A stretch of DNA of 64,000 bases from [Clostridium] aerotolerans DSM 5434 (GTDB lineage: Bacteria; Bacillota; Clostridia; Lachnospirales; Lachnospiraceae): contig NZ_JHWJ01000002.1 in the NCBI RefSeq assembly GCF_000687555.1, positions 248,001 through 312,000 on the forward strand. Direction: 5' to 3'. Positions 51,848 through 64,000 of the stretch are shown here, piece after piece. The first letter of the stretch is position 1, and each line of letters starts with the position of its first letter. The translations under genes were made by a program, and so were the position numbers. A model generated the notes under the pieces. That model ran no database searches, had not been told where the DNA came from, and saw only the letters and a program-made list of their open reading frames with translations.

Positions 51848-52303
51848 TTAACGAACTGTAAACTTCTTACCTCGTCTGATAGAGCCGTCACTGTTCCATT
51901 CTGTGTAGACGTATGGACCACCGTCTGTGGTTCCATTTTCCGTAAAGTAATGGTTGGTACCATTGTAATCAATTGGGCCAGTCATCATTTTCAGGGTACT
52001 GGTATTAAAGTAATAGACATTGTCATTGATCTTCATTATTCCCCCCTGAAGCTCACCGGTATCAGACGCATAATACCAGGTATTATCTCTTTGAATCCAC
52101 CCGGTACGCATAAGCTGGTCATTGCCAAAGAAAAACCAATGGCTTTTATAATTGACCCAGTTATTGGTACAATAATCCCCTGATCCCCACTGGTACTTTA
52201 CTCCCTGTGGTGTGGTGACAAATCCGGCCGCAAATGAAGATATCGCGCTTCCTATCGATAAAGCCATAGATAGTGCTGTAACTACTAAATACTTTCTTTT
52301 CAT
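51848..52303 (-). CDS. Secreted cell-wall-binding-repeat protein
   Basis: 151 residues with a Sec signal peptide ending near SSFA-A (residue 25) and four to five aromatic, Gly-rich repeats such as MRTGWIQRDNTWYYASDTG, of the CW_binding_1/choline-binding type. No catalytic domain. AAGGAGG lies 8 nt before the ATG. Attaches to cell-wall polymer; role unknown. Confidence 0.8.
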   Translation of the reverse strand: MKRKYLVVTALSMALSIGSAISSFAAGFVTTPQGVKYQWGSGDYCTNNWVNYKSHWFFFGNDQLMRTGWIQRDNTWYYASDTGELQGGIMKINDNVYYFNTSTLKMMTGPIDYNGTNHYFTENGTTDGGPYVYTEWNSDGSIRRGKKFTVR

Positions 52304-52495: not shown

Positions 52496-53644
52496 CTACA
52501 TCAGGCAGTGTCTGTCCATGGGGGTATTTGACCCGATTTCCTTCCCGGACTGTATGAGGGATACCAGATAAAATGGGGTTTCCTCTTCCTCCACTCCTTT
52601 TAGAATCTCAATTTCAACCACATGCTTTCCCGGCGTTCCGTGATGAAGGAGATTGGTCAGCGCGAGACAGTCTCCCCACTCCTCATCGAAGTTTCCGTCC
52701 AGAATGACGCCATGATCCCTGTCTCCATCAAGATAGGCTGCTGCCACTGGCGCAGGTCTCTTTATGGTTCTTCGGTATTGTACCGAAAGGCTGCTGCCCT
52801 CCGTCTCAAAAACAATACGGTCCCCACTGCATCGGCTGATCCAGCCTCCTTTAAAGACATCTGTTACTCCGTTTTTTATAGAATCATCGCGTAGAAAGCC
52901 CCTGCACTGGAACGGAGTTATGTTATTTTGTATCCGACTGGCGTCCTGGTAGCTGCACGGAGTTAAAGGAACTGGCATATTGGGTTGACCTGTATCCTCT
53001 GACGGTACAGGATCCATTCCTTTTATTTCCTCCAAAGCTATGATGATTAAATCAGCAATCTTTTTATGTCCCTCGTCATTGGGATGAAGCCCATCGGGAG
53101 TTATGTCTTTTATGGCTGTCTTGCCGTCTAATATGTCCTGATAGAGAGTTTCCTTTATGGAAACATAAGGGATGGAATAATGGTCCAGGACTTTCTTATG
53201 ACGCTCCAATGCCGAGCTTCCATCTTCATAAAATGCATTGCACAAAGCCATGACTCCAGGTCTTTTAGAGTGGGATAAAATACGCACAATCAGGCTTTCA
53301 TATGTTTCCATGAAAAAATCCGTATTGTCATCATTGACCGAAAAATCAAGAATTATAAAATCCGGGTTACGGGAAAGAACATCTTCCTGAGCTCTGGCTG
53401 CACCGAATAAGGAATTGGTCCCCCCAATTCCGGCATTGATGTAGGTAAAGCTTGCATTAGGAAATGTTTTCTTCCACCACTCATATACAAGATAAGCATA
53501 ACAGGTTACTGGTTTTGTGGCTAAAGAGCCCTGAGTGATGGAACCGCCAAGAAACGCCAGCACCACATGCTTTCCCTCCTGAGCCTTTTTAACTGCCTGA
53601 ACGATATCTCTTGGATTCTCTAAGTGAATCCCACGTAATTTCAT
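52496..53644 (-). CDS. CE17-like SGNH acetyl esterase
   Basis: 382 residues, no signal peptide, so cytosolic. N-terminal SGNH hydrolase with nucleophile in VLAFLGGSITQG near 36, AGIGGTNS, FSVNDDN and a DGLHPND His/Asp near 193. A C-terminal beta-sandwich (about 215-370) gives the two-domain plan of the Roseburia CE17 mannan 2-O-acetyl esterase. AAAGGGGGAG precedes the ATG, and its start overlaps the phosphomutase gene by 56 nt. It would deacetylate imported manno-oligosaccharides. Family placement is by architecture and neighbourhood. Confidence 0.72.
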   Translation of the reverse strand: MKLRGIHLENPRDIVQAVKKAQEGKHVVLAFLGGSITQGSLATKPVTCYAYLVYEWWKKTFPNASFTYINAGIGGTNSLFGAARAQEDVLSRNPDFIILDFSVNDDNTDFFMETYESLIVRILSHSKRPGVMALCNAFYEDGSSALERHKKVLDHYSIPYVSIKETLYQDILDGKTAIKDITPDGLHPNDEGHKKIADLIIIALEEIKGMDPVPSEDTGQPNMPVPLTPCSYQDASRIQNNITPFQCRGFLRDDSIKNGVTDVFKGGWISRCSGDRIVFETEGSSLSVQYRRTIKRPAPVAAAYLDGDRDHGVILDGNFDEEWGDCLALTNLLHHGTPGKHVVEIEILKGVEEEETPFYLVSLIQSGKEIGSNTPMDRHCLM

Positions 53645-55355
53645 CCTTCTCCCCCTTTTCTATGCTGGTTAAAACATCTTTCTTCAACGCTTTTAGCTTT
53701 TCATCGGCATCATGAAATGATTTTCCTTTTACTCCAAAATAAAACTTGATTTTAGGCTCCGTTCCAGAAGGTCTTATGGCAAACCAGGCATCCTCCGATA
53801 AGAGGAAGCGAAGTACGTTTGATTTGGGAAACCTTCCAGATACCCCTTCTCCTGTTTCATAATCTTCCTTTTTTATTATCTTAAAGCCACCTGCCATTTC
53901 CGGTGAATGGGTTCGGAAGGTCTCCATAATTTTGTTCATTTGAGTCAGACCATCTTCTCCTTTTAAGGTTACAGATTCCAGACACTCCTGATAGTAGCCA
54001 AATTCTTTATATAGCTGATTTAATTCTTCCCAGACAGAGCTGTCCTTTGTCTTATAATAGGCCGCGGCCTCGCACAAGACCATGACCGCTGAAATGGCGT
54101 CCTTATCTCTGACACAGGTCTCCACCAGACAGCCGCAACTTTCCTCAAAACCAAACTGGTAGGTGAATTCCTCAGATTCTTCAAAGATTTTCATCTGCTC
54201 TCCTATGTACTTAAACCCGGTTAAGACCTCAATCAGCTTCATTTTATACTTCTCTGCCAGAGGTCTTGCCATTTGCGTGGTTACAATGGTTTTTACTACA
54301 GCTCCTTTCAAGGGGAGATTTCCTGTTTCCTTTCTCCTTAAGAGAAGATAATTGCATATTAATATTCCGGTCATATTCCCGGTCAAACGGCAGTATTTAC
54401 CGGTTTGGTCATCCCTTACATAAACACCCATACGGTCTCCATCAGGGTCCGTAGCCAGAACAAGATCAGCGACTGCCTTTTCGGCAAGCTTAAGAGCCAG
54501 CGCAAAGGCACTTTCTTCTTCCGGGTTTGGGGACTTTACTGTCTTAAAATCACCGTCTGGTTCCATCTGCTCCTCGACAGTAAACACATTGGTAAATCCC
54601 AGATGGGATAACAATCGCCGTACCGGCAGATTCCCGGTGCCATGAAGAGGCGTGTATACAATATTCACTCCCTTTGCGGCCTGTAATAGAGCCTTGGGAG
54701 ATGATACCCATTGTTCCATTTCCTTTATGTAAGCGTCCTCCAGCTCATCTCCGATCCAATGAAGCAGTCTCTTTTCTTCTGCCTCTTCCAACGGAAGTCT
54801 CTTGATGGAACCATAATCCTTTATTCCGGTGATACATCGTCCTATTTCCTTATCCTTTGGAGAAGTAATCTGTGCCCCATCATCCCAGTATACCTTATAT
54901 CCGTTGTATTCCGGTGGGTTATGGCTGGCTGTGATAACAATACCAGCAGCAAGAGAAAGGCTGCGAATGGCATATGAAAGTAAGGGGGTAGGTGTCAGTC
55001 TGGAAAACAAGTAGACCGGAATCTGGTTTCCGGCCAGACATCTGGCTGTCTCTTCAGCAAATTCCCTGGACATATGTCTGGAATCATAGGCGATACCAAC
55101 GCCCTTTTCCCATTTTCCACTCTCTTTAAGATAATTGGCTAGTCCCTGAGTCACCCTCGCCACCGTATACCGGTTCATCCGGTTGGTTCCGGCTCCCATA
55201 ACTCCTCTGATTCCTCCAGTGCCAAATTCCAGTTCCTTTGAAAAGCGATCCTTAATTTCTTCTTTCTGGTTCCTGATTGCTTCCAGCTCTTTTCCTGTTT
55301 CATGGGAAAACAAAGGACTGGTACACCAATATTCATACTGATCTATATATGTCAT
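53589..55355 (-). CDS. Phosphomannomutase/phosphoglucomutase
   Basis: 588 residues of the alpha-D-phosphohexomutase superfamily. Active-site Ser in TASHNPPEYNGYK, metal loop in DPDGDRMG, sugar-specificity GFEESCG and phosphate-binding RPSGTEPKIKFY. Its location between two esterases and the epimerase/GH130 genes points to conversion of mannose-1-phosphate to mannose-6-phosphate rather than general glucose metabolism. ATG follows GGAGAG and overlaps the CE2-like gene by 4 nt. Confidence 0.9.
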   Translation of the reverse strand: MTYIDQYEYWCTSPLFSHETGKELEAIRNQKEEIKDRFSKELEFGTGGIRGVMGAGTNRMNRYTVARVTQGLANYLKESGKWEKGVGIAYDSRHMSREFAEETARCLAGNQIPVYLFSRLTPTPLLSYAIRSLSLAAGIVITASHNPPEYNGYKVYWDDGAQITSPKDKEIGRCITGIKDYGSIKRLPLEEAEEKRLLHWIGDELEDAYIKEMEQWVSSPKALLQAAKGVNIVYTPLHGTGNLPVRRLLSHLGFTNVFTVEEQMEPDGDFKTVKSPNPEEESAFALALKLAEKAVADLVLATDPDGDRMGVYVRDDQTGKYCRLTGNMTGILICNYLLLRRKETGNLPLKGAVVKTIVTTQMARPLAEKYKMKLIEVLTGFKYIGEQMKIFEESEEFTYQFGFEESCGCLVETCVRDKDAISAVMVLCEAAAYYKTKDSSVWEELNQLYKEFGYYQECLESVTLKGEDGLTQMNKIMETFRTHSPEMAGGFKIIKKEDYETGEGVSGRFPKSNVLRFLLSEDAWFAIRPSGTEPKIKFYFGVKGKSFHDADEKLKALKKDVLTSIEKGEKDEITWDSLRESKRYRSGS

Positions 55356-56449
55356 AATCTGCTCTCCATCAAATGACCATCAAAACCGAATTCATCCCGC
55401 CAGATTTCTTCTCCTAAACCATTGATATACTCCGACAGCTCTCCGGCCATTTCCTCTGCTTCTGGAATCCTGATATGTCCCGGTGTTCCACAACCGTTTC
55501 TCTTATAAAGGAAATGAGATACACGGTCATCCTTAAGTGTACTCCACACTTCTTCGATTGTCCTGTCCCAGTTATGGTGATGGCACAGTATGGTTGTTGT
55601 CAGGATTAGAAATGCCTGTGGATAGAGTTCTCTTAACTTCTGTATAAAACAGGTGTAGTGGGCCCTCCATTCCATTGCTTTCTGACCATCATAATCTTCC
55701 TTCATGAAATCCTCTGGGTGGCTGTCATTTTGACCCAAAGCTATAATTACTACATGAGGACGATACTCCTTAAAGTCCCACAGACTGGTTCTTCCTATTG
55801 TGGGTTGGTACTGAACCTTATCATAGACCCACTCCATACCAATGGGCCTTGGAGATTCAAACCAGCCCGTTCCATTTCTAAGGGCAATTCCGCCCTGGGA
55901 GATATTGTGGATGGAGGCATGAAGCTTTCTTGCCGTCATCCAGGCATAAGAGTACCAGCTATTGGAGTACTCTCCCTGATGAACCGGGTCAACTTTTCCC
56001 ACATAATCAGTGGCTTCTGATACCTCTCCTGCACTGACAGAATCCCCGTAAACCTCGATTCTCCGTTTGGGCAAAGGCTCTGGTTCCATGAGGGAACCGC
56101 CCTTTGGCAGTAGAAAGCCCTCTAGGGAAATGGTATGGCAGGAATCCTGACGCTTGAACAGCAACAGGCTGTGCCTGCCCTCTCCCAGTTCCTTTCCCAG
56201 ACAAAGACTGGTTTTTCCTTCCCCGGGAAGTTTTGCTTTTCTCTGGCCTCCATCTAAAATCCAGCCAATGTAATTATCCCAGTATACGGAATGGTTCTCC
56301 AGTTCTACTTCAACAGAGTCTCCTATAAATTCCAGCCTTACAAAACTGCAGGGATAAATAAACTCCGGCCGCCCCTTGTCATCTCTTCCGATCCTGCCAC
56401 AGTACTGCAAAAAGGGGTGGTCTGCTTTTATAAACAGCTTCTCATTCAT
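55352..56449 (-). CDS. CE2-like acetyl esterase
   Basis: 365 residues without signal peptide. N-terminal jelly-roll (about 10-115, including [16 protein letters not shown]) then SGNH domain with [11 protein letters not shown] (Ser near 137), [18 protein letters not shown] and a final GHIRIP. This order is that of family CE2, whose Roseburia member removes 3-, 4- and 6-O-acetyl groups from mannan. The jelly-roll precedes the hydrolase, unlike the CE17-like gene. The stop of the upstream gene overlaps by 8 nt. Confidence 0.8.
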
Positions 56450-58787
56450 ACCTTATAAGCTCCTTATTCTTGTGAATCAGGGCAATTCTCTGCCTCACAC
56501 AATCAGCACTCCTTAAAGGGTCCTCAGGCGTAGAAAACACGTAATCCATCAGCTTCTCTACAGTGGTGACTGCCACATGGATTCTGGTATCTGAGGAAGC
56601 ATAATAAAGATATACCTCTCCATTTTCACGGGCAATTGCCCCATTGGTAAAGACCACATTGGAAACATCTCCTACCCGTTCCTCTCCTCTTGGTCCAAGA
56701 AGAAGGCCAGAAGGCTCTGCTATGACTTTAGATGGCTCTTTTAAATCTGTTGCAAAGGCATAGAGAACATATCTGAGTCCTGCTGCCGTATACCTGACTC
56801 CGTGAGCGATGTGGATCCAGCCAGCCGGTGTTTTAATGGGAACAGCCCCGGCTCCATTTTTCGCTTCTGTTATGGTATGATAACGGCGTTTGCTGGTGAT
56901 GATTTCTTCGTCTATGACTCCGTGGCGGATATCCTTGCAAAGGCCAAAGCCAATTCCACCGCCGCTTCCAGTCTCAATAAAGTCATCCATGGGTCTTGTA
57001 TAAAACCCGTAACAGCCATTTACAAATTCAGGGTGAAGCATGACATTGCGCTGCTGAGGGGAACGAAGTGTCTTAAGATTATCAAGACGCTCCCAGGTTT
57101 TTAAATCCTTTGTTCTGACAATACCTGCCTGGGCCACTGCTTTTGATAAATCAGAAGAAGTGGAGTCGTGGCTTTCTGAGCAGAATACCCCGTAAATCCA
57201 GCCGTCCTCATGCTTTGTCAGCCTCATATCATACACATTAGTTTCTTCCGGGCAGGTGTCAGGAAGAGTGACTGGTTCTTCTAAGAAGCGGAAACCATCG
57301 ATTCCATTCTTGCTTTCTGCTACCGCAAAAAATGATTTCCGGTCGTTTCCTTCCACCCTCGCAATGAGATAAAACTTTCCATTTAATTCAATGGCTCCGG
57401 CATTCATCACTGCATTGATACCAAGACGCTCCATAAAATAAGGATTGGTGTTCCAGTTAACATCATATCTCCAGGTAAGAGGCACATGGTCCCTGGTCAG
57501 GACCGGGTATTTATATCGGTCAAAGATGCCGTTATACCAATCTGTCTTTTCATTCCTCCTGCCAATTAACTGATCCTGCCTGTTCTTTTCCGCTTCATAC
57601 CGCGGGTGAAGAATGCCAAGTCTCTTTATGACTTCCATGCACATTCTTCCATTGTGATAAGGACATTTCCAAGGCTCCACCAGAGGATCGTCACCAGAAG
57701 GTGCTTCCCCTCCACAAATCCGGTAGAACCATTCTGACCCGGGTCTTTGGTCCACCACCCGTTTTTTTATGTAGCTCCAGATATCCTCTGCGGCTTTAAA
57801 GAACCTGGTATCCTCCGGCTGTTTCTCCCAGGCATTTAAAAATCCCACCACGCCCTCTGCCTGAACCCACCAGATCCGGTCTTCATCGGCTCTGCCATTT
57901 TCCCATTCATTTAAAAGGCTATGGTCTTTATAAGCCAGCTCATAGACCTGTTCAGCCAGCATTCTGGTCAATGGTTCCATTCTCTTTTGATATTCCGAAT
58001 CTCCTAACATTCCGGTACAACGGTCAATAAGCCAGGAAGCCTCTATGTCATGACCATAGGAATGAAGGTCTAAAAGGGATTTCCAGTCATTGTCGAAAAA
58101 TACCTCCAGCCGCCTTTTTTCAGTATTAAACACACGGCTTTCAAGTACATCTAAAAGATGCCTCAGGGTTTTAGCCACTCTGGGAGCATGGTCCACCCGG
58201 TAAAGCTCTGTATACGCCTCCAGCAGGTGAAGCAGCGTGTTCATGGTTCTTTCTGCCATGACTCCGTGCTCTGAAAGCTTATCATTTCTGATAGGGTGGA
58301 AGGAAGAATCATAAGCTTCTCCGTAACCATCCATAGACCGGAAGGAATGCTCAATCTGGTCAAAAAGATCATAAGCAAGACCCAACGCCTCTGGTTGCCG
58401 GGAGGCATCGTAATAGGCTGATAGGGCGTAGACGGCAAACGCCTGATTATAGGTGTGTTTTGTCCGGTCCACCGGCTTTCCATCGTAGGATACCGACCAG
58501 TACACCCCTCCTTCTGCCCGGTCCAGACAGAAGTTTTTTAGGAACCGAAAACTATGATCCGCGTAATCCAGAAGGTCCTTTCGCTTTAAAGTCAGAGAAG
58601 CATTGGAAAAGAACCATAATATCCTGCTGTTTAAGATAACTCCCTTATCTGCCTTTTCATCCACCTTAAGGTCATGGCCCACGTAGCCGTAATAGCCTCC
58701 GTACACCTCATCCTTTAATCCTTCCCAGAATGGGAGCAGCTTTGTCTCCAGATGCTCCCTCATTTCTTCTGCCATCGTTTCCTTCAT
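56442..58787 (-). CDS. Fused mannobiose 2-epimerase and GH130 phosphorylase
   Basis: A 781-residue fusion. Residues 1-395 are an AGE-family cellobiose/mannobiose 2-epimerase: catalytic His246 in [10 protein letters not shown] and His378 in CPYHNG, with 132-residue spacing as in Ruminococcus CE, and no catalytic changes. Residues about 415-781 are a GH130 phosphorylase with the acid D520 in [14 protein letters not shown] and [15 protein letters not shown] and [13 protein letters not shown] motifs of mannosylglucose phosphorylases. Epimerase would turn mannobiose to mannosylglucose and the second domain phosphorolyse it to Man-1-P and glucose. AAAGGGAG precedes the ATG; no stop or frameshift joins the parts. 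In known loci these are separate proteins. Confidence 0.9.
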
Positions 58788-58810: not shown

Positions 58811-59824
58811 CTATCGTCTTCCTGGTTCCTGGTCCTCTTCCGTTAAAACACTATGTTCCTTTATGTAAGTGACTATTTCCTCTGCCCTTGTAAAGGCCAG
58901 GGCCACGTAGCTGTCTGCCGCGCCGTAATAGATGGCTATTCTTCCATCCTCCGGGTCACAGATCGTGGCGCAGGGGAAGCAGACATTGGGAACAAATCCC
59001 CGTTCCTCATACCAGGTTTCAGGGGTCAGAAGGAAATTTTCACACCGGTATTTGACCACGGAAGGATTGTCGATATCTAAAATAGCCCCCCCAATGCTGT
59101 ATACGAATCCATTGCAGGTGCCGGATACCCCATGGTAAAATAAGAGCCAGCCTTCATTGGTCTCAATAGGAGCTGCACCTCCCCCAATCTTTAAGGATTG
59201 CCACCATTCCTTGCCCTTTCCCATTACGTGGCGGTGTTTTCCCCAGTAAACAAGATCCGGGCTCTCGCTTAGAAAAATATCTCCAAAAGGGGTATGACCG
59301 CTGTCACTGGGACGAGAGAGCATCATAAAATTCCCATTTACCTTTCTGGGAAATAAGACGGCATTCCGGTTAAATGGAAGAAAGGGATTCTCGAGCCTGA
59401 CAAACGTCTTAAAATCCTGTGTTTTTGCCATACCAATGGAAGCTCCGTAAAAATCCTGACACCATATGATATAGTAGGTGTCCTCCACCTTTACCAGACG
59501 GGGATCATAGGCATATCTTGGCATGAACTCCTGACCTTCCTCGTCGACGAACGTAATCTTTTCTTCTTCAAACTCCCAATGAATTCCGTCTTTGCTTCTG
59601 CCAAGATAAATATAGGGAATTCCATTGTTCTGCTCTCCCCGGAACACGCCGATAAAGCTGTTCTCATAGGGAATCACGGCAGAATTAAATATCCTGGCCA
59701 CATGATCTATGGGATTTCTTCCGATAATAGGATTTTCTGTATAGCGCCAGATTGGGGATCCTGTACATGTTCCTGCTGGCTCCTGCCATGGCATTGCCTT
59801 TATTTTAGGTGTATATAATTTCAT
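58811..59824 (-). CDS. GH130 manno-oligosaccharide phosphorylase
   Basis: 337 residues, cytosolic, GH130 subfamily 2-like. Acid D107 in MPRYAYDPRLVKVED, phosphate-binding SRPSDSGHTPFGD and KIGGGAAPIETNEGW are intact; length fits single-domain manno-oligosaccharide phosphorylases, longer in substrate than MGP. It would remove terminal mannose as Man-1-P from chains before the fused enzyme acts on mannobiose. AGGAGG precedes the ATG. A mannosyl-N-acetylglucosamine phosphorylase role is an alternative, less likely beside two esterases. Confidence 0.88.
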   Translation of the reverse strand: MKLYTPKIKAMPWQEPAGTCTGSPIWRYTENPIIGRNPIDHVARIFNSAVIPYENSFIGVFRGEQNNGIPYIYLGRSKDGIHWEFEEEKITFVDEEGQEFMPRYAYDPRLVKVEDTYYIIWCQDFYGASIGMAKTQDFKTFVRLENPFLPFNRNAVLFPRKVNGNFMMLSRPSDSGHTPFGDIFLSESPDLVYWGKHRHVMGKGKEWWQSLKIGGGAAPIETNEGWLLFYHGVSGTCNGFVYSIGGAILDIDNPSVVKYRCENFLLTPETWYEERGFVPNVCFPCATICDPEDGRIAIYYGAADSYVALAFTRAEEIVTYIKEHSVLTEEDQEPGRR

Positions 59825-59834
59825 GGTTTTCCTC

Positions 59835-60680
59835 CTAACCTTTGACTGCTCCCTGAGTCAGTCCGCTGTATATTTGTTTCTGACAGAATATAAATACAAA
59901 AAGTGCTGGCAGCAAGGTAATGATTACACCTGCGCAGATATAGTTATACTGGCTGCCAAGTGGCCCTGTAAATTTATAGAGAGACGTAGCCACGGTTACC
60001 AGACGGTTCTTATCCTGGAGATATAAGTTTGCCATATAGTATTCGTTATAAGTCCCAACGCCTTTTAATATCATCACCGTTATGATGGCTGGTTTTAAAA
60101 GGGGCATTAATACCCGGAAAAATACACCGAAATACGTGCAGCCGTCCATAATGGCTGACTCATCTAAGGATATTGGTATGTTTTCAAAAAACTGAATGAA
60201 GATGTAAATGGAGATTACATCGGTTCCCATCATCAGAATAATGTATCCTGTAAGGGTATTGATTAAGTGAAATTCATACATCAGCTGATAGACCGATACC
60301 TGCATGGCGATTCCAGGCAGCATGGCTGCAAATAAAAAGAGATTCCTGATGAGCCCATTTCCAAGAAACTTAAAACGGTTCAATATGTAGGCAAGCATGG
60401 AACCTGTGAGCACGGAACCAAGGAGAACAAATACTAAAATTACAAGGGAATTGCGAAATGCAGTTGCCATATTCGCCTGATTCCATGCCTGAATAAAGTT
60501 TCCTCCATACAGCCAGTTTTGAGGTAAAGTCATGACATTGGTGGAAGCATATTCTTTTTCTGTTTTACATGCAGTTATGACGCATACCACCACAGGAGTC
60601 ACGGATACAAAAGCGCCCGCCATAAGAGTCAGATATTGAAAGAACTTCCATAATCGCTTTTTTACTTTATGACGATTCAC
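59835..60680 (-). CDS. Manno-oligosaccharide ABC permease (MalG type)
   Basis: 281 residues, six helices, EAA-like loop IMDGCTYFGVFFRVLMPLLK. GTG start at 60680 overlapping the previous stop (TAGTG), AAAGGAGG upstream. It works with the next permease gene and binding protein; the ATPase is not encoded here. Confidence 0.9.
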   Translation of the reverse strand: MNRHKVKKRLWKFFQYLTLMAGAFVSVTPVVVCVITACKTEKEYASTNVMTLPQNWLYGGNFIQAWNQANMATAFRNSLVILVFVLLGSVLTGSMLAYILNRFKFLGNGLIRNLFLFAAMLPGIAMQVSVYQLMYEFHLINTLTGYIILMMGTDVISIYIFIQFFENIPISLDESAIMDGCTYFGVFFRVLMPLLKPAIITVMILKGVGTYNEYYMANLYLQDKNRLVTVATSLYKFTGPLGSQYNYICAGVIITLLPALFVFIFCQKQIYSGLTQGAVKG

Positions 60681-61666
60681 TAAGCCCCCTCCTTTCGGGA
60701 GATCATTTCTCTTTTTCTCCTCAGCCTCTTTTCCCGCCAGGAATCCTCTTCCCCTTCTCCGAAGAAATATCTAAAAATAAGTTTCTGGAACAGAGTGGCT
60801 GCCAGAATGATCACAAGCAGAATCACAGCCATTGCAGAAGCGAGGCCTACCTTTTGATTTTCATGAGCCAGTTTATTCATGACCACAAAATAAGTTGCGG
60901 TCCCAAAGCTTCCGTTGGTAATGACATAGGGTGGTTCAAATGCGCTTAGGGAACCAGTGATGGACAAAATCAGATTGAGGACAATAACAGTCTTAATGCT
61001 TGGAAATACGATATACCGGAATTTTTTCCATTCATCTGCCCCATCTATAGCAGCCGCCTCATACATGGTGGAATCCACGGACATAATGGCACCGATAAAT
61101 AAAACCATGTTCTGTCCCATGTACCTCCATATCGAGGTAGCCGCTATGGAAATATTATTGATCCGTGTATCTTTCAGCCAGTAAGGCAACTGATCCTGTG
61201 TAAAGCCGAACCAGGAAAGGACAGTATCGAAAACAAACCCTCTGGTATAGAAAAACTTGAAAATAAAGCCTACTGCGATTCCACAGATGAGATATGGAAA
61301 AAACATAAACCCCTTAAACAAATTACCACACCGGATATTGGTACTGAGTACGGAAGCAAAGTAAAGAGCCAGGGACATCTGAACAAAGCATGCCCCTATG
61401 TAGTAAAGACTCAGTCTCAATGCTTTAAAGCAATCATCTCTTTGAAACACATCCAGATAATTTTGTATTCCTACATATTCCCTTTTTCCAATGTACTTCA
61501 TATCGAAAAAGCTAAAGCCCATCATTTTCACAAAAGGAATATAGGTAAATACCAAAAGCAGGAATACGGGTATAAACATAAATGTCAGGATGACAAGCCA
61601 CCGGTTCACTTTCCCCTTTTGGAGCCATTTCACCACATGGGCCGCCATGTTCGATCTTTTACTCAA
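60680..61666 (-). CDS. Manno-oligosaccharide ABC permease (MalF type)
   Basis: 328 residues, six helices, EAA loop YEAAAIDGADEWKKFRYIVFP. TTG start at 61666 with AGGAGG 8 nt upstream; an ATG six codons later is the alternative. It has a long basic C-terminal tail. Permease partner in the mannan importer. Confidence 0.9.
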   Translation of the reverse strand: MSKRSNMAAHVVKWLQKGKVNRWLVILTFMFIPVFLLLVFTYIPFVKMMGFSFFDMKYIGKREYVGIQNYLDVFQRDDCFKALRLSLYYIGACFVQMSLALYFASVLSTNIRCGNLFKGFMFFPYLICGIAVGFIFKFFYTRGFVFDTVLSWFGFTQDQLPYWLKDTRINNISIAATSIWRYMGQNMVLFIGAIMSVDSTMYEAAAIDGADEWKKFRYIVFPSIKTVIVLNLILSITGSLSAFEPPYVITNGSFGTATYFVVMNKLAHENQKVGLASAMAVILLVIILAATLFQKLIFRYFFGEGEEDSWREKRLRRKREMISRKEGA

Positions 61667-61678
61667 AGCTGTCTCCTC

Positions 61679-63061
61679 CTACTTTATCGCTCCGAACTTT
61701 TTCTGAGAAGCAGTCCATCTGGCATTCCAGTCAGCCATGATCTCATCAAGAGTCGGAGAACCGGTTGTGGCTGCTTCCAGGATTTTAGAGACTCCGTCGG
61801 GGGATACGTTAAGGCCTACCTCAGAATCATTGTTGATATCATTGTAAAGCGTCTCCTCTCCCTCTGGAGCCGGGTTATCGATGACTAATTCAATTCCATC
61901 AAACATCTTATAGACGTCCGGATACTTTTCCCCTACGCAGATGGGAATCCCGCCCTGGTCATAGGCAAAATTAGACTTTTCCGTAAGCCATTTGATGTAA
62001 AGCATGGAAGCGATCTGATTATCCTGGCTGCTGTTCAAATTAATGCCATAATTATAATCGGGAGCTGCGGAGACATATTGTTTTCCATTTACAGTAATAG
62101 GAAATGGCATATATCCGATGTCATCCCCATGATCTCCTGCCCCCTGCATCTGAACTACAGACCAGGAGCCCAGTGCCATGGTCGCAATCTTACCGCTGTT
62201 CATCATGCCCTTGCTTCCCTCCCAGTCCGTTGTGGTTGGATCTTCTTCCGTCAGTCCTCGTTTCACAGCCTCATATAAAACGTAATAAACCGCATAAGGT
62301 CCTGTCATATCTGCCCGCTTTTCAAATGGATTTTTGCTGTGGAGCAGCTCATTGTTGGCAAAGTCCGGATCTCCTGTGGCAGATCCTGTAATATAGGCAT
62401 CCCAGGCCGTCATCGTCCAGTTTGCCGCGAAATTGGTATACATGGGAATCGCGTCTGTATTATCCTTGATTTTCTGTAAGGCTGCCAGAAAATCGTCGGG
62501 CGTTTTGGGAAGCTCCGTAATCCCTGCATCTGCAAAAACCTTTTTGTTATATACAATTCCCTGTACATTTCCCATAGACGGGATTCCATAGACCACATTT
62601 TTATAGGAATAGTTATTCAGCATGACGTACTTCTTTTCCAGCTCTGTGATATCTCCAAAAGGAAGGAAATAATTTTTCAGTTCATTCTTATCGATCTGAG
62701 TAGGAACCATGCAGATATCGCCCCAATCTCCTGTGGTGAGTCTGGTAATAATATCATCCGCATAACTGGTGATTCCTTCGTATGTAATTGTTACGCCCGG
62801 ATACATCTTCTGGAATTCTTTTATGTAATCCTGAAAGACCGTATCAATGATATCTGTCTTGTGTGTGATAAATCTTAAATCTGCTTTGATATCCTTATAA
62901 TCTTCTCCCACCTTCAAATCTGTAAATTTAGGCAGCTCAGCTGCCTTCTCTTCTTTGGCTGCCTGGGTTGCTGTGGCTTTTGCGCCGCCGCAGCCTGCCA
63001 GGGAAGCAGCCATCACTGCCGCCAGTCCTGCCGCCCCAATTCGTTTCCAAACCTTCATCAT
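61679..63061 (-). CDS. Manno-oligosaccharide-binding lipoprotein
   Basis: 460 residues. Lipobox SLAGCGGA (Cys about 24), Ala/Lys-rich tether, then a family 1 solute-binding domain with KTDIIDTVFQDYIKEFQKMY and YGIPSMGNVQGIVYNKKVF. Large size fits oligosaccharide binding. GGAGG precedes ATGATG. First gene of the mannan operon, so made in excess. Ligand is inferred from the downstream enzymes. Confidence 0.88.
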   Translation of the reverse strand: MMKVWKRIGAAGLAAVMAASLAGCGGAKATATQAAKEEKAAELPKFTDLKVGEDYKDIKADLRFITHKTDIIDTVFQDYIKEFQKMYPGVTITYEGITSYADDIITRLTTGDWGDICMVPTQIDKNELKNYFLPFGDITELEKKYVMLNNYSYKNVVYGIPSMGNVQGIVYNKKVFADAGITELPKTPDDFLAALQKIKDNTDAIPMYTNFAANWTMTAWDAYITGSATGDPDFANNELLHSKNPFEKRADMTGPYAVYYVLYEAVKRGLTEEDPTTTDWEGSKGMMNSGKIATMALGSWSVVQMQGAGDHGDDIGYMPFPITVNGKQYVSAAPDYNYGINLNSSQDNQIASMLYIKWLTEKSNFAYDQGGIPICVGEKYPDVYKMFDGIELVIDNPAPEGEETLYNDINNDSEVGLNVSPDGVSKILEAATTGSPTLDEIMADWNARWTASQKKFGAIK

Positions 63062-63372
63062 GCTTCCTCCTTCATTATTTAATCCTGTTAATTTCAGGAT
63101 TTTATTAATTTATTTTAAGTTAATTTAAGTATATTTTAAAGTTAATCCATATTCATCGACCATTCTTGCGACTTATCATGAATCCTTGTTTATTTTTATG
63201 CACTACCTCTGTTTTATATCATTTATTTCATTTTTTTTGTTTATATTGTTATATTTATCCTGGATTTTAGTAAGACACTTTCGTTATAAATGATTTTTTT
63301 ATTCTGTTTTTAACTTTAATTTTATGGTTTATTATGCTAGACTATAAAAAAACAGATGAAAAGAGGTGCGTT
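63062..63372. other. Divergent promoter region of the mannan operon and AraC gene
   Basis: About 310 nt of very AT-rich sequence. TTAAGTTAATTTAAG near 63115 and TTTTAAAGTTAA near 63135 form imperfect repeats that might bind the AraC protein or a catabolite regulator. No RNA structure recognised and no gene supported. Confidence 0.45.
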
Positions 63373-64000
63373 TTGGAATTCAACAAACTTTTTTTAGCTC
63401 ATTTATTAAGTAATAACAAGCTAACTTCTGCTTTCAGTGCCAGCCAGTGTCTGCCCCCTGAATATCCCCTTAAACCAGAAGATGGTGATTCCTTACTTTC
63501 CCTGATGGCAGCCGGATATATGAATACCTGTTACCCTTACCGTTACGAAATTACAGATCTTCCCTGCTTTTGTATTCTGTATACTGTATCAGGAAGCGGT
63601 GTGTACGAAACTGGTGATAAGAGGCTTTCCCTTTCACCCGAAACCTTTCTTTTTATCGATGGTTCTATCCGCCATAAAATTTACACAGAAAAAAACAGCT
63701 GGAATTATTACCAGCTGTTTATAGAAAAAACAAAATGCTTATTCTTTTTTAGAGAGTTTATAAAAACGTGGGGCAGTCTTACCGTCATTCCAGCCACCCC
63801 ATATATCCTGTCTCTTTTTTCCCGCCTCACTGAGATTCCTGAATTCTTAAGCAGGGACAACTTAATCATCAATCACCGGCTTCTTACAGACCTGCTTACG
63901 GCTGCTGTCCTGCCTCCTTTTGCCTCCCAGTCTGATGTGGCCCCTCCTTATTTAAGGGAAATGAAAAAAATAATGGACACCCGGTACGCCTCTTCCCACA
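63373..64000 (+). CDS. AraC-family regulator, N-terminal part (cut by window end)
   Basis: Open reading frame of at least 209 codons running off the window, with a sensor-type N-terminal domain (LYTVSGSGVYETG, SLSPETFLFIDGSIRHKIYT, beta-barrel-like) and what looks like the start of a helix-turn-helix near the end (MKKIMDTRYASS). TTG start at 63373 with AGAGGTG 4 nt upstream; an ATG at 63334 is in frame but lacks a ribosome site. Being divergent from the mannan operon, it is its probable activator. Confidence 0.75.
   Translation, partial: MEFNKLFLAHLLSNNKLTSAFSASQCLPPEYPLKPEDGDSLLSLMAAGYMNTCYPYRYEITDLPCFCILYTVSGSGVYETGDKRLSLSPETFLFIDGSIRHKIYTEKNSWNYYQLFIEKTKCLFFFREFIKTWGSLTVIPATPYILSLFSRLTEIPEFLSRDNLIINHRLLTDLLTAAVLPPFASQSDVAPPYLREMKKIMDTRYASSH

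Follow-up and report, generated by a model that had tools for sequence, protein, structure and literature searches.

[Clostridium] aerotolerans DSM 5434, a relative of Lacrimispora, carries a gene in which a mannobiose 2-epimerase domain and a GH130_1 phosphorylase domain are joined in one reading frame. Judged by its sequence, this gene very probably makes a single bifunctional enzyme, derived from two joined neighbour genes, that works in a manno-oligosaccharide pathway. The gene lies in the window, by which we mean the whole 64,000-nucleotide stretch analysed, and occupies positions 56442-58787 of the minus strand as one open frame of 781 codons that runs from ATG to stop with no internal stops; the plus strand of the same interval contains many stops. 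The first-pass annotation had reported a continuous 781-residue epimerase-phosphorylase frame here, and that observation is confirmed as real, with exact coordinates and on the minus strand.

The fused gene and its two domains

Domain searches bore out the proposed identities of mannobiose 2-epimerase and GH130 enzyme. Pfam places GlcNAc_2-epim at residues 31-357 (E 2.7e-33) and Glyco_hydro_130 at residues 462-750 (E 7e-23), and sequence matches to PDB entries are far stronger for both halves: cellobiose 2-epimerase 3vw5 over residues 5-389 (E 1.5e-122) and mannosylglucose phosphorylase 5ay9 over residues 393-778 (E 7.3e-183). We take both structures to come from Ruminococcus albus. GH130_1 is the closest group for the phosphorylase half, with 5ay9 at E 7e-183 and 3was at E 2e-151 versus 1vkd at E 8e-30 and 7fip at E 9e-16. 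Phosphorylases are thus the best matches by a wide margin, which speaks against the possibility, raised at the first pass, that the C-terminal half is an unrelated, non-phosphorolytic mannosidase. A protein search of the bacterium's own genome with the fusion protein returned only the fusion itself and the GH130_2 protein listed in Table 1, and found no second copy of either half.

Table 1. Positions in the window of the fused gene's parts and of the surrounding genes
Feature	Position	Strand	Remarks
Divergent AraC-family regulator	63334..64000	+	Runs beyond window edge; complete in L113, 309 aa
Solute-binding protein	61679..63061	-	Best PDB match BlMnBP1, E 3.3e-130
Putative ABC sugar permease 1	60680..61666	-	Named from sequence and place; conserved neighbour
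Putative ABC sugar permease 2	59835..60680	-	Named from sequence and place; conserved neighbour
GH130_2-type beta-1,4-manno-oligosaccharide phosphorylase	58811..59824	-	Separate gene upstream of fusion; Pfam, PDB matches
Epimerase domain, N-terminal, residues ~5-390	57618..58775	-	AGE-family cellobiose/mannobiose 2-epimerase; His187, His246, His378
Junction, residues 389-404	57576..57623	-	Epimerase end joined directly to phosphorylase N-terminal segment, almost without linker
Phosphorylase domain, C-terminal, residues ~393-778	56454..57611	-	GH130_1; Asn462, Arg483, Asp520, Asp733
CE2-type acetyl esterase	55352..56449	-	ATG overlaps fusion-gene TGA (ATGA)
Phosphoglucomutase/phosphomannomutase family protein	53589..55355	-	Sequence match
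SGNH esterase	52496..53644	-	Best PDB match 6hfz, E 9e-115

In relatives the two genes are often parted by a single in-frame stop, so an artefact of assembly or sequencing, with the real genes divided by a stop, has to be weighed. The fusion recurs, in the same frame, in four other genomes of the genus, at 79-95% identity and with no stops, so it is not an assembly error. The five genomes that share the open frame include the one-contig G024, and G017, and the junction differs from those of split relatives by more than the stop codon. Assembly error was rejected on the strength of these five genomes, and we give an artefact of either kind next to no credence.

Active-site residues and selection

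The residues named at the first pass, His246, His378, and Asp520, are found at the positions given there. His187 is the third histidine of the epimerase half, the positions of the three active-site histidines in the R. albus epimerase being those we assume. Three histidines per active centre are described for AGE-type epimerases in the available text of PMC12006067.

Aligned over 372 residues with the Bacteroides fragilis enzyme (3was), the phosphorylase half has 225 identities. The B. fragilis residues Asn73, Arg94, Asp131, and Asp344 align with Asn462, Arg483, Asp520, and Asp733 of the fusion, and we take Asp131 to be the acid. Mannose is recognised in B. fragilis by Asn73, Asp131, and Asp344, according to the excerpt of PMC4264767. 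In GH130 hydrolases, acids replace the three phosphate-binding basic residues (PMC4599007, in the portion available). The B. fragilis phosphorylase has 38 basic residues between positions 73 and 350, and the fusion is identical at 29 of them; this measures overall conservation rather than that of the phosphate-binding three as such, and so does the invariance of five basic positions in all 10 fused rows. All 9 complete fused sequences retain the 12 positions checked, and the contig-edge row has 11 of them, its sequence being without the twelfth.

Both halves look constrained: among the compared fused genes, dN/dS lies at 0.11-0.13 in the epimerase half and at 0.04-0.07 in the phosphorylase half, with dS near saturation (1.4-1.9) when the window is set against L006 and L007. 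These ratios are consistent with purifying selection on each half.

A manno-oligosaccharide operon

The operon runs in the order solute-binding protein, two permeases, GH130_2, fusion, CE2 esterase, phosphomutase, and SGNH esterase, and the same order is found in G024 (L136), G007 (L137), and G011 (L035). Structures of BlMnBP1, the best PDB match of the solute-binding protein, also exist with mannotriose and mannopentaose. The best match of the SGNH esterase, 6hfz, is RiCE17 according to the available text of PMC9487903.

The partners match manno-oligosaccharide proteins, so the context proposed at the first pass holds, but its description as a complete mannan operon does not. Zero Pfam matches to GH26 were obtained in the bacterium's own genome (99.97% complete) at E 0.001, and zero to GH113 at the same threshold, the latter with a weak probe whose control matched 1 of 14 genomes, below cut-off; the absence of GH113 is less firm because of this control. 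Seven GH5 matches were obtained, of which one is strong and resembles endoglucanases. The Pfam search for mannanases covered GH26, GH113, and GH5. Since GH26 and GH113 are unmatched and the strong GH5 is endoglucanase-like, the operon looks like one for manno-oligosaccharide uptake, and its owner seems to scavenge acetylated manno-oligosaccharides rather than to carry out the whole of mannan degradation.

Directly downstream of the operon, 51848-52303 of the minus strand of the window encodes a small protein that carries choline-binding-type repeats. To the operon's right, at a distance of about 10 kb, a GH1 gene stands beside one for a PTS EIIC-EIIA protein (L113:10783-13985, minus strand).

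Proposed pathway

We infer the enzyme activities and the order of steps as follows. Manno-oligosaccharides would enter through the operon's ABC importer, lose their acetyl groups to the CE2 and CE17-type esterases, and be shortened to mannobiose by the GH130_2 phosphorylase. The epimerase half would convert the reducing-end mannose of beta-1,4-mannobiose to glucose, giving mannosylglucose, which the phosphorylase half would split with phosphate into mannose 1-phosphate and glucose. The operon's mutase would move mannose 1-phosphate on toward glycolysis.

GH130_1 of Roseburia intestinalis was active on mannosylglucose only and inactive on G1M1 and the other oligosaccharides tested (PMC6385246, as far as its available text goes), and PMC9784577 reports that GH130_2 and GH113 of Roseburia hominis did not convert mannobiose. 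Because GH130_1 takes only mannosylglucose and the R. hominis GH130_2 and GH113 leave mannobiose, the epimerase-GH130_1 pair would be expected to fill the mannobiose step. The epimerase would open this mannobiose dead end, and the complete fusion would therefore be expected to work as a mannobiose phosphorylase, with a net reaction of mannobiose and phosphate to mannose 1-phosphate and glucose.

The B. fragilis phosphorylase is a hexamer formed through N- and C-terminal helices, according to the accessible portion of PMC4599007. Since the epimerase is attached at the N-terminal segment of a phosphorylase of this hexamer-forming type, it is a reasonable guess that the fused chain may, by homology, assemble into a hexamer with an epimerase domain on each of its six subunits.

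Distribution among relatives

Of 25 genomes in the genus, 5 have the fusion, 3 a split pair, 1 a split pair with a broken frame (G023), and 1 a fused remnant (G013); 15 are without a close copy of either half. The G013 remnant (L121) is a frame of 448 aa made of the epimerase and the last ~41 phosphorylase residues, and reads as an in-frame loss of most of the phosphorylase from a fused gene. As G013 lost nearly all of that half, phosphorylase activity can apparently be given up. The G023 locus (L123, G023:C1:3937387-3940669) is a split pair with several frame changes, which may reflect decay or sequencing error.

In wider samples, complete fusions are found in at least 2 of 397 genomes of the family sample (plus a contig-edge case, G314), in at least 6 of 392 of the order sample, and in 1 of 398 of the phylum sample among the matches listed, that one being the window's own; the samples overlap, and fusions distant from the query may lie outside the matches listed. 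The order sample includes two fusions from outside the genus, in G691 (L037) and in G465, which belongs to another family, where at least 1 of 8 genomes is fused. In Paenibacillaceae, the family of G756, at least 2 of 245 genomes are fused (G1253 and G1202), and the nearest named rows to these fusions are Paenibacillus. A pattern scan added one more fusion, L058. Ten further candidates were not counted: direct frame scans showed separate frames in G135, G235, G380, G312, and G645, where the listed open-frame lengths had pointed to fusions, and G1263, G1340, G1145, G1348, and G1151 were likewise split.

Among 89 non-redundant pairs, 7 are fused and 82 are two genes. In 27 of the 82 split pairs, the epimerase stop is followed at once by the phosphorylase frame, with no shift between them; one third would be expected in frame by chance, and the pairs come from ranked or shortened lists. 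Two adjacent genes are the common arrangement among the relatives examined, and the fusion is the minority form. In many Paenibacillaceae, among them L155 (G1221), the pair shares a frame that a single stop codon interrupts within the match, and these are natural counterparts to the fusion. The phylum sample also returned many GH130 matches in frames of ~1170-1260 codons, of which we looked at L157 and at L158 (1021 residues). The L157 protein (L157:2771-6331, minus strand; 1186 residues) has a C-terminal GH130 domain like that of beta-1,2-mannobiose phosphorylase, and its residues 1-870 gave no Pfam, NCBIfam, or PDB sequence match.

The junction and the old start of the phosphorylase

At the junction, 5ay9 reads IHEKYTEMRNEQ from its residue 2 in the alignment to the window. 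The position of the old phosphorylase start is ATG (MIH) in split relatives versus ATT (ILH) in the window, and the bases just before it are AGGAGG in several split relatives versus AAAGAGA in the window. In the split relatives L008, L010, L011, L085, and L091, the last epimerase codons are ATAAGGAGG or ATTAGGAGG, followed by ATG, and these codons can also provide the phosphorylase gene with a ribosome-binding site. The window reads ATAAAGAGA at the old start, and the ATG there is also gone in the fused genus relatives L004, L006, and L007. In the window clade, the phosphorylase start at its old position is lost, and therefore both activities are probably made one to one, in one chain.

The protein might nevertheless be split during or after translation, through an internal start or cleavage, to give two ordinary enzymes. 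A scan for ribosome-site matches, run without a chance control, picked up a start codon preceded by 4 or more matching bases in 80 of 82 split pairs and none in the scanned stretch of the window; the missing match and the missing start codon at the old position both argue against a split product there. Elsewhere, the linkers of L037, L058, and L133 keep an ATG near the old start with a match of 4-6 bases, which would suit separate translation. In three of the four distinct fused genus rows, a 5-base match, AAGGA, stands away from the old start and before other possible ones (the Met384 codon in L004, an upstream GTG in L006 and L007). Because of these matches, internal initiation from weak starts may still be possible in the window clade. 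The argument that the lost ribosome site proves an exclusively fused phosphorylase is weakened by the same three rows, and by the scan's want of a chance control. A split product is nonetheless, in our judgement, very unlikely, and we keep to one joined chain.

Probable repeated origin by gene joining

The phosphorylase tree puts the 7 fused rows, out of 89, at four separate points, of which the starred branches force three; the epimerase tree likewise has four, and there the starred branches force all of them. On the epimerase tree, a single fused clade is rejected with p-AU 1e-51, a value from a quick tree in which the group was named with the trait in view and L058 sits on a long branch. 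A joined tree, which adds the two Paenibacillaceae fusions and the contig-edge G314, has 10 fused of 98 rows and needs six changes, or five without the contig-edge row, under a plain LG model with a quick search and with counts that are blind to gain versus loss. Linkers of the fusions vary in length and sequence, and this variation favours separate gains. With four places on the single-domain trees and six changes on the joined tree, the fusion probably arose repeatedly in different bacteria.

The fusion gene would have formed by the joining of two tightly spaced neighbour genes, and such joining may be functionally neutral: operon neighbours become joined by stop loss or a small indel, and the product works no better than the separate enzymes. 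We lean slightly toward this reading. It agrees with the predominance of two-gene pairs, with the share of split pairs parted by a single stop in the same frame, and with the rarity of fused genomes in the family, order, phylum (among the matches listed), and Paenibacillaceae samples. Other neighbours in such operons also fuse, as seen in GH130_1-CE2 (L118, 744 aa), GH130_1-phosphomutase (L128, 951 aa), epimerase-GH26 (L129, 710 aa, and L130, 733 aa), and, by BLAST only, CE2-CE17 (L077, 947 aa), and for this reason gene joining explains the origin of the fusion without channelling. Against neutrality stands the persistence of the fusion across ~20% protein divergence in the genus. The fusion counts in 80 loci point the same way, though weakly, since the loci were ranked by similarity to the fused query and no statistical test was applied: epimerase-GH130_1 is fused in 5 of 73 cases, in three lineages, versus 0-1 for other neighbours (GH130_1-GH130_2 0/24, GH130_2-epimerase 0/19, binding protein-permease 0/35, permease-permease 0/35, permease-epimerase 0/18, GH130_1-CE2 0/15, CE2-CE17 1/17). 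A higher fusion rate for this pair is not pressed, as the loci came from a fused query.

The epimerase step is reversible. Joining might therefore bring a gain through channelling or proximity, by which mannosylglucose would reach the phosphorylase before back-epimerisation or dilution. The two steps are consecutive, and this pair is fused at five or six tree positions. In the window clade no ATG remains at the old start, and none lies between the domains there, in the Paenibacillaceae pair (which has GTG), or in G314, which counts in favour of a gain; three other fusions, however, keep an ATG with a ribosome-site-like match. Small sugars also move quickly by diffusion, and by far most of the relatives examined manage with separate enzymes, so we hold such a gain to be rather unlikely. 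We are just as doubtful of the wider proposal that selection favours the fusion, with at least five lineages having independently built a mannobiose phosphorylase, hexameric, that would keep the reversible intermediate local, in some of them with no separate phosphorylase. Neutral joining of neighbours remains the reading we prefer.

Relation to known systems

We take the R. albus set to consist of the epimerase 3vw5, RaMP1 (5ay9, GH130_1), and RaMP2 (5ayd, GH130_2). The R. albus mannan pathway shares with the window the two domain families, as best PDB matches, and the neighbouring GH130_2, and its logic is the same as that of the fusion in the available text of PMC8262883 and PMC4264767; its epimerase and GH130_1 are separate proteins, whereas in the fusion they form one polypeptide. 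The loci of R. intestinalis and Faecalibacterium prausnitzii are also alike in holding an epimerase, GH130_1, GH130_2, CE2, CE17, a phosphomutase, and an ABC importer. As far as the published excerpts go, they differ in that epimerase and GH130_1 are separate and in that they hold GH113 and other glycosidases (in Roseburia also GH26) that are unmatched in the window genome. A fused pair in a manno-oligosaccharide locus has a precedent in RhGH1-M6P of R. hominis, described in the accessible part of PMC9784577, but its domains are different, GH1 and mannose 6-phosphate isomerase.

The first-pass annotation had set the fusion against separate described enzymes. The described loci do have separate enzymes, in what is available of PMC6385246, PMC8262883, and PMC9784577, but the fusion is not unique, since it recurs in our survey. 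A search of the open-access literature found no description of a fused or bifunctional epimerase-GH130 protein, and none is reported in the available text of PMC8262883, PMC7478625, PMC8950772, PMC6643232, PMC4264767, PMC6385246, PMC13281645, or PMC9784577. Both enzymes in the fusion are well known, and they stand in the order that is usual for them.

What these bacteria offer is a natural fusion of two enzymes that act consecutively, alongside relatives in which a single stop codon, without any change of frame, parts the two. Recurrence of the fusion together with these single-stop split relatives makes a good natural test system, in which the fusions can serve to ask whether enzymes of a pathway work differently once joined.
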